Assembly: GCA_012517815.1 (NCBI GenBank) | Contig: JAAYUF010000059.1 | Span: 34,260-98,259 of the forward strand | Direction of reading: 5' to 3' | Source of the DNA: Clostridiales bacterium | Lineage (GTDB): Bacteria > Bacillota > Clostridia > Christensenellales > Aristaeellaceae | DNA: 64,000 nucleotides | Shown: positions 6,103-18,356 of the stretch, in pieces | Numbering within the stretch: position 1 is the stretch's first letter | Layout: each line of letters begins with the position of its first letter | The notes under the pieces: generated by a model | Databases searched by the model: none | Seen by the model: only the letters and a program-made list of their open reading frames with translations | Told to the model about the DNA's origin: nothing | Translations under genes and position numbers: made by a program

Positions 6103-6448
6103 TGGTGGAGGTGAGGGGAGTTGAACCCCTGTCCGAAAGCATGCCGATCAGGCTTTCTCCGAGCGCATTCAGGGATTTGGGATTCCCCTCGGCAAACGCC
6201 CCCTGACGGGCTTATGCCTACGGTAGCTTCATTTTACGAACAACACCTCAAAGCTTTGATGTGCTCGTCCCCCACGATCATGACGCCGGGAACCGAATCC
6301 GTGGGCGGTTCGGGCCGACGCGCGGCATTAAGCCGCGAAAGCGAATTCGTTATTGTCGGTTGTTGTTTTTCCCCGTTGTTGCGCGGTACAGGGTCCGCGG
6401 CTCGCTTACCCAACCTTCAAAACCCCCCGTCGAAACCGGAACACCCCC
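6103..6448 (-). ncRNA. ssrA: tmRNA
   Basis: 3' end reads ...GGGGTTCAACTCCCCTCACCTCCACCA; 5' end GGGGGTGTTCCGGTTTCGACGGGG; acceptor GGGGGTG pairs with CACCTCC; tag-like reading frame ...GKTTTDNNEFAFAA-TAA. Confidence 0.95.
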
Positions 6449-12608: not shown

Positions 12609-13529
12609 ATGAGCGCCTATCAGTGCTGGTTGACGCAGCGCGAACGTCTGCGTGAGCATCTCCGAAACGCAGGCGACGCCTCCGCGGCGTACCTGACGCG
12701 CCACGCGATCGCTCAGGTGGAGCAAAACGTCATGGCGGAACAGCCGGATGATCTGCTTCGCCAGCAGACGGGCATTCTCTTCGCCTGCGTGAAAACCTCG
12801 CTGGGCTTTCTGGAAATCAGCGTGGATACCAAGGTTTGGCTGGCGAAGGACGAAACCGCGCGCGCGCGAAAACGTGGCGGCATCGGCTGGATGCTGCCCG
12901 CCTGCGCCGTCGAGGCCGCCCTGGCGGCGTTTGGGGCGGTCACCGGTCAGCCGTTGTTCTGGATACCGGCGTGCGTGGCGCTGACGGGGATCGCGGCGGG
13001 CTGGATCGGGCTAAGCCGCGAACGGCGGCATGAGTCGCCGCCTGAGGATCGGCTGCGCGTGACGGCCTCGCCCAACGCCGAAAAGCTGTTTCAGTCGATC
13101 GACGCGCAGATGAAGGCCCTGGATCGCTACATCAACGATTTTCAGTACCTTAACGAACAGGCCGCGGCCGCAGGCCAGAGCACGGAAGGCCGGAACGCTG
13201 GCCTATATGCGGAGCTGATGCAGGCCGCGTACGCCTGCGAGGATGAGGCGCGCGAGGAAATTGCCGCAGCCGCGAAGGGCCTGCTGGCCGCCAACGGCAT
13301 CACCGCGGTGGAGTATTCCGCCGAAAACGCCCGCTACTTTAACCTTCTGCCCAGCCATACCGAAACCGGAACGATCTCCCCCGCGCTCCTTTCGCTCAAG
13401 GACGGCGCGCTGCTCAACCGCGGGACAGCCGTGATCCTTGAGCCGTCGCAATCCGCCGGGGACGGCGTCGGCACGCCCGCGCGCGGCGCCGACCAGCGCG
13501 CATCGGACTTCCGCGCCGACCCATCGTGA
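12609..13529 (+). CDS. Membrane protein with a GrpE-like C-terminal region (putative nucleotide-exchange partner of the adjacent Hsp70-like protein)
   Basis: Strong RBS GGAGGTGA; two TM segments (GWMLPACAVEAALAAFGAVTGQPLFWIPACVALTGIAAGWIGL); helical region then LLAANGITAVEYSAENARYFNLLPSHTETGTISPALLSLKDGALLNRGTAVI, resembling the GrpE beta-domain. Confidence 0.55.
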   Translation: MSAYQCWLTQRERLREHLRNAGDASAAYLTRHAIAQVEQNVMAEQPDDLLRQQTGILFACVKTSLGFLEISVDTKVWLAKDETARARKRGGIGWMLPACAVEAALAAFGAVTGQPLFWIPACVALTGIAAGWIGLSRERRHESPPEDRLRVTASPNAEKLFQSIDAQMKALDRYINDFQYLNEQAAAAGQSTEGRNAGLYAELMQAAYACEDEAREEIAAAAKGLLAANGITAVEYSAENARYFNLLPSHTETGTISPALLSLKDGALLNRGTAVILEPSQSAGDGVGTPARGADQRASDFRADPS

Positions 13530-13540
13530 GGGCACAGCAC

Positions 13541-15430
13541 ATGCGATACATCGGGTTTGACATGGGCGACGGCGAAAGCGCCGTCGCGATTTACGAGCAG
13601 GGCTCGGGCATCGAGCCGATGATCCAGTCCCTGTACGGCAGCCGGAGCCTGATCTCGGCAGTCGGCACGCTCAACGGCGATACCGTGATCGGCGAGCAGG
13701 CTTTTACAAGCGTGCTGTCGGAAAACCTGTCCGTCCGCTTTAAAAGCCGCTTTACCGACGATCCGGGCTCCTACGATATCATCGTGCGGTTCGCGCGCGG
13801 GGTTCTCACGGCGCTGCGGGACGCCAACGCCGTGCGTCCGGAGGATCGGTTTGTGGTTGGATGCCCGGCCGGATGGAACGCCGCCGCCCGCGCGCGTTAC
13901 CGTGATCTGCTGGTACGGGCGGGCATGAACGATCCGCAGGTGATCTCGGAATCCCGCGCGGCGTTTCTCTACGCCAAATATGCCAAGACCGTGGCCCTGG
14001 ATCTGGATATCCTGCGGCAGAGCGCGCTGGTGATCGATATCGGCAGTTCCACGCTGGACTATGCCTACATCGTGGACGGCCGGGAAACCGGCGTGGGCAC
14101 GTTTGGGGATACGCACCTGGGCGGCGGGCTGATCGACGCTGAGATTCTGCGCCGAGCCGTGGAGAAAAGCCGCGACCGGCAGGCCTTGCAGCGCGTGTTT
14201 GCCCAAAGCCGCAGTTGGCTGAGCTATTGCGAAATCCAGGCGCGCAGGCTCAAGGAGCAATTCTATCTCCGTCTGACGCAGGAACCGGACGTCGCCGTGC
14301 GAAAACCGTTGCGCGTCTGTTACGACGGCATTCAGAAGGCGACCCTGACGCTAACCGCGCAGGAAGCGGAAAGCATCGTGCAAACGCCGCTGGAAGCGCT
14401 GGACGGCTTGAGTTTCGAGCAGGCGCTGCAAGCTTCGCTGCAAAACGCCGCGGCGGTCACAAAGGATGCGCCGCCCAGGCTGGTGCTCCTGACAGGCGGA
14501 GCGTCCCGCATGCCCTTCTTTCAGGCCCAGTGCGGCGCCATGTTCCCGCAGGCGGTCATCGTCATGTGCCCCGAGCCGGAGTTTTCGATTGCCAAGGGGT
14601 TAGCCTACGCCGGCTGGGTGGACGACAATCTGCGCGCGTTCCGGCAGGCGATCCGCGATGAGATGACGGAGGAACGGATCGGCGCGGTCGCGGCCAGGGC
14701 GCTTCCGGAGCTGATCCCAAGCGTCGCGGGCGCGCTGGTCGAGCTGACGGTCCGCGAAGCGGCCTCGCCGGTTCTGTCCGCCTGGAAGCGCGGCGATATC
14801 GCCACGCTCAACCAGATGAACGAGCAGCTTCAGCGTCGCGCGGAGCGGGTGCTCGCGTCCCCGCTGGCGGAACAGGCGCTGGCGCCCGTGCTCGCCGATT
14901 GGCTGTCCGGGCTTGCCGCCACGCTGCAAACCATGGTCGACCCGATTTGCGACCGTTTTCACGTACCGCGCGAGGAAATGCGCCTGAACCTGAACCAGAG
15001 CGGGAACATGGCGACCGTGCGCGTGGGCGTGAAGGACCTGATGGGCTTTTCGGTCATCGGCGCGATGGTGGCGCTGGCCGCCGGTCTGTTCGGCGCGGAG
15101 CTGTGCGGAGGCGGCGGCATCGCGCTGATCGTGTCCGGCCCTCTTGGGTGGCTGGCCGGCGCGGCGGCGGGCGCAGCGCTGGTTCTGCTCGGCTGGCCTG
15201 CGGTCACGGCGGCGATGATGAACATGAACCTGCCGCTTGTGCTGCGCCGCGTCAACACGGAAAAAACGCTGCAAAGCGAGAAATTCCTCCGTGCCCTGCG
15301 GCAGTCGTTTCTCAGGGAACTGAACCGGTCGGAAGGGCCTTTCTCGCAAAAGATCGTCTCGGGTTTTGTGCAGGCGTTTCAGCAGTATCTGTTCCGCACG
15401 GCGCAATCAGCCGAGGTTCCCATCCGGTAA
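13541..15430 (+). CDS. Divergent Hsp70/DnaK-like ATPase with C-terminal membrane segment
   Basis: Actin/Hsp70 ATPase motifs: IGFDMGDGESAVA (phosphate 1), ALVIDIGSSTLDYAYI (phosphate 2), RLVLLTGGASRMPFFQ (adenosine); no recognisable DnaK substrate-binding domain; hydrophobic VIGAMVALAAGLFGAELCGGGGIALIVSGPLGWLAGAAAGAALVLLGWPAVTAAMM near the C-terminus. Confidence 0.8.
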   Translation: MRYIGFDMGDGESAVAIYEQGSGIEPMIQSLYGSRSLISAVGTLNGDTVIGEQAFTSVLSENLSVRFKSRFTDDPGSYDIIVRFARGVLTALRDANAVRPEDRFVVGCPAGWNAAARARYRDLLVRAGMNDPQVISESRAAFLYAKYAKTVALDLDILRQSALVIDIGSSTLDYAYIVDGRETGVGTFGDTHLGGGLIDAEILRRAVEKSRDRQALQRVFAQSRSWLSYCEIQARRLKEQFYLRLTQEPDVAVRKPLRVCYDGIQKATLTLTAQEAESIVQTPLEALDGLSFEQALQASLQNAAAVTKDAPPRLVLLTGGASRMPFFQAQCGAMFPQAVIVMCPEPEFSIAKGLAYAGWVDDNLRAFRQAIRDEMTEERIGAVAARALPELIPSVAGALVELTVREAASPVLSAWKRGDIATLNQMNEQLQRRAERVLASPLAEQALAPVLADWLSGLAATLQTMVDPICDRFHVPREEMRLNLNQSGNMATVRVGVKDLMGFSVIGAMVALAAGLFGAELCGGGGIALIVSGPLGWLAGAAAGAALVLLGWPAVTAAMMNMNLPLVLRRVNTEKTLQSEKFLRALRQSFLRELNRSEGPFSQKIVSGFVQAFQQYLFRTAQSAEVPIR

Positions 15431-17552: not shown

Positions 17553-18356
17553 TTACAGCGTTCCCAGAACGCCAAACAGCTCCGCCGGGCTGTCGCCTGC
17601 CAGCAGGCGGATTACGATGATCACCAGCAGGTGCAGCGGATAGAAGCCGTAGCCCAGCCACTTTGGCAGCCGAACGTTCATCCGCGTCGGGATGAGGATC
17701 AGCGGAAGCGCCATCCACATCATCGCCTGCATATGGAAGAAGGGCTGCAGCATTGGCCCGATGCCCGGCCAGGTGAGGAATGTGAGCGGCATGCCCATCA
17801 CCGTCGTGATCTGACTGCCGGATGATCCCCAATACATCGCGTAGGCCAGAAACATCGCTGCCAGACCGCCGGCCGAGCGCCGCGCGAAGTACATCAGCAG
17901 GATGAAGGCGAGACCTTTCCAGCCGTAATCGACCTTGAGAAAACCCAGCAGCAGGAAGCACGCTGCGGGCGCCCAGAACTGGCTGCCATACCGTTTTTTT
18001 TGGATGCCGGCTATCGAAAGCACGCCCAGCAGCAGCAGAAACAGGATATTGAGCTTGGACCAAGGGTTGCCCAGCGCAACCATGTTGACGGGCTGAGAAA
18101 CAACCGCCAGGATGAACAGCCGGAACGCGTATCGGTAGATGTCGCGCGTGTATTCCGCGCCGACCACCAGGCACCACACGTACAGGGGCATCGCTATGCG
18201 CCCGATCATCCGCAATTCCGGCATGTTGCCAAAGAGCGCCACGTCCATATGATCGATCATCATAAAGACAAGCGCCATCAGTTTCAGCCACGAGGTATCC
18301 TGATTGCCCCCCAGCGTTACAGGACGCCGGGTTAGTGCCACACTGTCCATCTGCAT
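17553..18356 (-). CDS. TraX family membrane protein
   Basis: LKLMALVFMMIDHMDVALF...LRMIGRIAMPLYVWCLVVGAEYTRDIYRYAFRLFILAVVSQPVN... is typical TraX-like sequence. Confidence 0.85.
   Translation of the reverse strand: MQMDSVALTRRPVTLGGNQDTSWLKLMALVFMMIDHMDVALFGNMPELRMIGRIAMPLYVWCLVVGAEYTRDIYRYAFRLFILAVVSQPVNMVALGNPWSKLNILFLLLLGVLSIAGIQKKRYGSQFWAPAACFLLLGFLKVDYGWKGLAFILLMYFARRSAGGLAAMFLAYAMYWGSSGSQITTVMGMPLTFLTWPGIGPMLQPFFHMQAMMWMALPLILIPTRMNVRLPKWLGYGFYPLHLLVIIVIRLLAGDSPAELFGVLGTL

Follow-up and report, generated by a model that had tools for sequence, protein, structure and literature searches.

In the usual understanding, an Hsp70 motor is a nucleotide-binding domain (NBD) that drives the opening and closing of a peptide clamp. 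The cyanobacterial Hsp70 DnaK3 retains the full substrate domain. As a chaperone, DnaK3 is reported to bind thylakoid membranes (PMC7281324). In Myxococcus, the bicistron MXAN_6672-mxdnaK2 joins the gene for a GrpE-type cochaperone, immediately upstream, to that for a specialised DnaK, and the encoded proteins interact with each other (PMC11019930). Closer to the organism considered here, accessory clusters in other Clostridia (L169 and L172) encode a divergent GrpE, an extra Hsp70, a TPR protein and a DnaJ-TPR-like protein.

Here we describe two adjacent genes, P1 and P2, from a clostridial genome assembly; the window, by which we mean the whole stretch of DNA analysed, is 64,000 nucleotides long. 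P1-P2 has the two-gene order of the Myxococcus bicistron, with the gene for the (here putative) cochaperone first, but the Myxococcus cochaperone is a recognisable GrpE homologue, its partner is a DnaK, and the passages on it mention no membrane segments (PMC11019930). P2 resembles DnaK3 in being a membrane-associated member of the Hsp70 family (PMC7281324). Neither system is known to have the P1-P2 architecture. The clostridial clusters are similar in that an extra Hsp70 comes with its own divergent GrpE; however, that GrpE is recognisable (36-37 bits), the Hsp70, of about 570 aa, looks canonical, and a TPR protein with J-domain likeness is found nearby. A search of the open literature returned no published description of a membrane Hsp70/GrpE-like pair. 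The reading we favour, with a confidence slightly better than even, is that P1-P2 is a self-contained mobile module consisting of a membrane-anchored Hsp70-type ATPase and a dedicated membrane-anchored partner that regulates it, perhaps as a nucleotide-exchange factor. The features on which this reading draws are as follows.

12609 to 13529, + strand: P1, open reading frame of 306 aa, membrane partner protein; mean AF2 pLDDT 85.8; homologue directly 5' of P2 in 78 of 81 loci
12876 to 13022, + strand: P1 transmembrane hairpin, residues 90-138; AF2 helices 90-112 and 115-138, hydropathy of the window protein and homologues
13077 to 13292, + strand: P1 long helix (157-189) and two shorter helices (197-228); AF2/DSSP
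13299 to 13439, + strand: P1 C-terminal small beta domain, residues 231-277, F..LP...T[IL].PA[LIV]...LL.RG.A; AF2 pLDDT about 93-97
13528 to 13532, + strand: Shine-Dalgarno-like GAGGG over the P1 stop codon, 8 nt before the P2 ATG; read from sequence
13541 to 15430, + strand: P2, 629 aa, Hsp70-type ATPase with membrane domain; alternative GTG start at 13526
13541 to 14620, + strand: P2 nucleotide-binding domain, residues 1-360; Pfam HSP70 4e-14, Foldseek DnaK 3e-17
13550 to 13588, + strand: P2 phosphate-1 motif IGFDMGDGESAVA; D-G in place of DnaK T11-T12
14030 to 14071, + strand: P2 phosphate-2 motif VIDIGSSTLDYAYI; D166, T171, D173
14483 to 14521, + strand: P2 adenosine motif VLLTGGASRMPFF; sequence and homologue alignment
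14621 to 14980, + strand: P2 helical stalk region, residues 361-480, in place of the substrate-binding domain (SBD); AF2 helices 346-374, 377-416, 423-438 and 441-472, no family match
15029 to 15220, + strand: P2 Gly-rich hydrophobic hairpin, residues 497-560, CGGGG..LI..GP.G.LAGA..G...LLG; AF2 helices 497-522 and 534-550, low confidence
15278 to 15409, + strand: P2 C-terminal helices, residues 580-623; AF2

Both genes lie on the same strand where the preliminary description had placed them, and they form the tight pair that it described; the GAGGG overlaps the P1 stop. The P2 frame is open from the GTG, which would give a 4-base overlap with that stop. Since homologues align from the ATG at 13541 (MRYIGFD), which the GAGGG precedes, the true P2 coding sequence is probably 13541-15430.

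Within the Hsp70 family, P2 is a variant not described before. The P2 NBD matches Pfam HSP70 (E=4e-14, the best stretch being residues 108-360), a phmmer search of PDB sequences returned DnaK/Hsc70 matches including E. coli DnaK (E=5e-11), and the AF2 model (pLDDT 82.7) finds the DnaK NBD fold in Foldseek (E=3e-17); the three Hsp70/actin ATPase motifs proposed at the outset are thus all present and not there by chance. When P1 and P2 were scanned against Pfam, NCBIfam, PHROGs and PADLOC, HSP70/DnaK models on the P2 NBD were the only convincing matches. With DnaK, P2 shares the NBD fold, the ATPase motifs and the catalytic Lys/Glu/Asp/Thr positions (PF00012), and the residues equivalent to DnaK D8, K70, E171, D194, T199 and D201 are kept in 49-51 of 51 sequences, a conservation from which an active ATPase would be expected. 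DnaK T11 and T12 are not conserved in the same 51-sequence alignment, and the phosphate-1 loop of P2 reads D-G-E-S where that of DnaK reads T-T-N-S.

Beyond the NBD the likeness to DnaK ends. Of the 599 positions of the HSP70 profile, the match reaches no further than 369, and the C-terminal part of P2 (about 265-270 aa) matches no Pfam family and no PDB sequence, for which reason we regard the DnaK substrate domain as missing, in keeping with the preliminary description. In place of the SBD beta domain and the helical lid, AF2 gives helices and a hydrophobic hairpin. The confidence of the hairpin model is low (pLDDT about 48-68); the hydrophobic C-terminal segment itself is found in all 51 P2 homologues, and the hairpin glycines are invariant. 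No dynamin GTPase or helical domain profile appears among the Pfam families listed for 29 P2 C-terminal domains.

The soluble C-terminal domain of P1, like the C-terminal part of P2, belongs to no known family, and searches with P1 of the PDB by sequence, and of PDB and viral libraries by fold, gave no convincing match. Ahead of the P1 membrane hairpin AF2 places a helical bundle. The two transmembrane helices that had been read from the sequence are both modelled, and relatives carry hydrophobic segments there, although in the window protein the second helix alone passes the hydropathy cut-off. The C-terminal domain is compact, with six short strands, and no other part of P1 is so well conserved; P258, A259, G272 and A274 are invariant.

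The two genes are paired across phyla. In a survey of 81 loci (80 public and the window), a P1-family gene lies directly 5' of P2 in 78, with a median gap of 9 nt and often a 4-nt overlap; among the three exceptions, two start near a contig end and one (L072) looks like a real absence. Presence counts in 101 genomes of the host family, tallied by hand with a P2 threshold of E < 1e-20, gave both genes in 30, P2 alone in 7, neither in 64 and P1 alone in none (Fisher p=2e-19). Distances within P1 and within P2 are correlated over 78 pairs (r=0.88 with relatedness left in, a value to which shared ancestry contributes). Outside the host family the module is rare: sampling 388 genomes of the class turned up one other, and sampling 249 of the phylum again one other. 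In the places where it is present, the two genes mostly stay together. The pair is found in another family of Clostridia (L160, P1 at 1.9e-6), in four genomes of a Fusobacterium group of 25-30% GC, where it occupies at least two genomic sites, and on a conjugative plasmid of Calothrix brevissima (AP018209.1, L179:3902-6807), where both genes are annotated as hypothetical. As deposited, the Calothrix P1 seems to carry a frameshift ahead of its C-terminal domain, the conserved C-terminal motif standing in the next frame. A divergent pair with one gene between its members, followed by a HerA-like ATPase (DUF87), is present on an IMG/VR contig (L178:47-9472); other products of the larger operon there are a protein with Sel1 repeats, one with an EF-Tu domain 2 and one with a metal-binding-like HEGRH motif. 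Phage records gave no match to P1-P2.

At least three bacterial phyla thus have the pair, a spread that suggests a so far undescribed machine, and the linkage between the two genes, which the preliminary description had made a test of its idea, is conserved. Together, linkage and spread speak strongly against chance neighbours. The Fusobacterium P2 sequences fall inside the clostridial P2 tree with moderate to good support, which indicates that the pair was transferred. No third gene is conserved beside P1-P2 in the 81 loci beyond lineage synteny (an rluB-type gene 5' in the closest relatives, nagA/nagB 3' in another clade), and the two genes therefore appear to form a stand-alone module that moves as a unit. 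Because it is absent from most species, the module is not a core function. At three loci (L162, L163 and L164) one or two genes lie between P1 and P2 (kinase-like, methyltransferase, GNAT acetyltransferase, ankyrin); these vary by genome and look incidental.

A true GrpE-fold nucleotide-exchange factor in P1 would make the pair a membrane chaperone/exchange-factor system, and we hold this to be somewhat unlikely. In its favour, the predicted order of elements (a long helix, two short helices and a small beta domain of six strands) presumably resembles the GrpE structure, the RTIRPALV-like string of P1 recalls IRPAMV in GrpE (PF01025), and a bicistron with the exchange factor upstream and the Hsp70 downstream is described for MxDnaK2 (PMC11019930). 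However, the GrpE beta-domain pattern that had been proposed for P1 proved to be a resemblance without significance. Pfam GrpE, which had been suggested as a check on the C-terminus, does not match P1, nor does it rank among the commonest matches across 50 homologues of P1. Profile comparison by hhalign against 31-35 GrpEs gave probabilities of 0.4-10%, which derive from a short motif of 7-10 columns, T-I-x-P-A-L. These comparisons used ordinary and divergent GrpE profiles in local and global mode with column-shuffled controls. In local mode, with alignments of 7-18 columns, the P1-GrpE score lay above the shuffles in three runs (narrowly in one, where a single shuffle of 40 approached it; in the other two, 100 and 60 shuffles all fell short), and the global score was equalled by about 1 in 60-100 shuffles. 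Searched with the confident full P1 model, Foldseek returned 54 matches, none better than E=2.8, with no GrpE among the best 50 of the 54; the likeness of P1 to GrpE structure, as far as it goes, lies in the predicted order of elements. P1 further differs from GrpE, a soluble dimer, in its predicted membrane anchoring by two transmembrane helices and in its N-terminal helical bundle, and its motif precedes an extra hairpin, whereas in GrpE it lies at the very end of the protein. The profile and fold tests having given no support for homology, and the similarity being of motif length, we do not file P1 under GrpE. P1 may work like an exchange factor all the same, and a GrpE-like domain would make of it an exchange factor anchored in the membrane, of a kind for which we found no description in the literature searched.

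Other accounts of the pair turn on P2 or on the company that it keeps. P2 might be an actin/MreB-like filament former of a membrane cytoskeleton with P1 as its membrane adaptor, after the manner of PilM/PilN or MreB/MreC. The membrane partner would suit such a role, P2 has sub-threshold matches to ParM_N, MreB and MamK, and in the alignment its subdomain IB region looks shorter than that of DnaK; but these matches are weaker than that to HSP70, which is by far the best in both sequence and fold, and P2 has a membrane segment of its own, so that we consider a filament improbable. A special case of the reading we favour would have P2 remodel membranes as a mechanoenzyme, analogous to dynamin, in which an Hsp70 motor acts through the stalk and Gly-rich hairpin. 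The succession of stalk helices, hydrophobic hairpin and return helices, with its invariant glycines, agrees with this, but in Pfam the C-terminal domain matches the helical domains of dynamin-like proteins neither by sequence nor by profile, and the hairpin is modelled at low confidence; we rate the idea as unlikely. The patchy distribution, the horizontal transfer and the copy on a conjugative plasmid, together with the divergent copy, whose neighbours include a HerA-like ATPase and a protein bearing a metal-binding-like motif, could also suggest an anti-phage or conflict module. We think this very improbable: PADLOC gave no match for P2 and 17 bits for P1, in the transmembrane region, the conserved neighbours include no defence genes, and the window copy is surrounded by ordinary genes.

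The mechanism that we propose for a regulated, membrane-anchored Hsp70-type ATPase would run as follows. P2 would be anchored in the membrane, its NBD coupled to the helical stalk and the Gly-rich hairpin in the position of a peptide-binding beta-sandwich. A two-helix hairpin of its own would keep P1 next to P2, leaving the C-terminal helix and small beta domain in the cytosol, where the conserved domain may dock on the P2 NBD and control ATP/ADP turnover, perhaps as a nucleotide-exchange factor. Nucleotide-driven movement of the P2 lobes could then pass through the stalk to the membrane hairpin and on to a membrane protein or the bilayer. Because no third gene is constant, any partner would have to be either the bilayer or some component that cells have in general. 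In its fullest form the proposal is of a new kind of membrane machine, in which an Hsp70 motor without its peptide-binding domain acts through stalk and hairpin on the membrane or on an integral membrane complex, controlled by an adjacent membrane-anchored exchange factor and carried between phyla as a two-gene cassette; in that form it is tentative and rather doubtful. Of the membrane chaperone or remodelling ATPase module first envisaged, two elements stand, the tight gene pair and a membrane-associated ATPase of Hsp70 type that lacks the DnaK substrate domain; its own GrpE-fold exchange factor is not established. Were our reading correct, this conserved and mobile pair, with a membrane domain in the place of the clamp and a dedicated membrane partner, would have the Hsp70 cycle drive a different kind of work, and P1-P2 would offer a minimal two-protein system in which to test this.

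P1 is not strictly required, since P2 occurs without it at L072 and L161 and a degenerate P2 paralogue is found in the same genome as the window. L161:3722-5728 encodes a distant P2-like protein from another class of the phylum with no adjoining P1. The paralogue belongs to a second locus of the host genome, on contig C69 (L004:6340-11390, minus strand), which holds one P1 and two tandem copies of P2. In the downstream copy the ATPase motifs are degenerate (VHQGSGSL): the alignment shows H for the phosphate-2 aspartate and R for the catalytic lysine, losses that make it a likely pseudo-ATPase.

The host genome is a 3.9-Mb assembly of 170 contigs, with the window on contig C143, and its named relatives are metagenome assemblies of Christensenellaceae/Limiplasma-type Clostridia, many from gut and rumen. 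It encodes a canonical GrpE (C112), full-length DnaKs and J-domain proteins on contigs other than that of the window. As the preliminary description had observed of the surroundings, no J-domain protein is near the pair: none is on C143, the three J-domain genes found being on C112, C49 and C163, and the HPD motif occurs in none of 78 P1 and none of the P2 sequences. In the window a pseudouridine synthase gene lies 5' of P1 and an isocitrate dehydrogenase gene 3' of P2, neither of them a conserved companion of the pair across the 81 loci. Elsewhere the window carries a tmRNA gene (6103-6448, minus strand) with the tag peptide DNNEFAFAA, and a gene for a TraX-like membrane acetylase of the pilin acetylase family (17553-18356, minus strand; score below curated cut-offs), which adjoins a two-component system.
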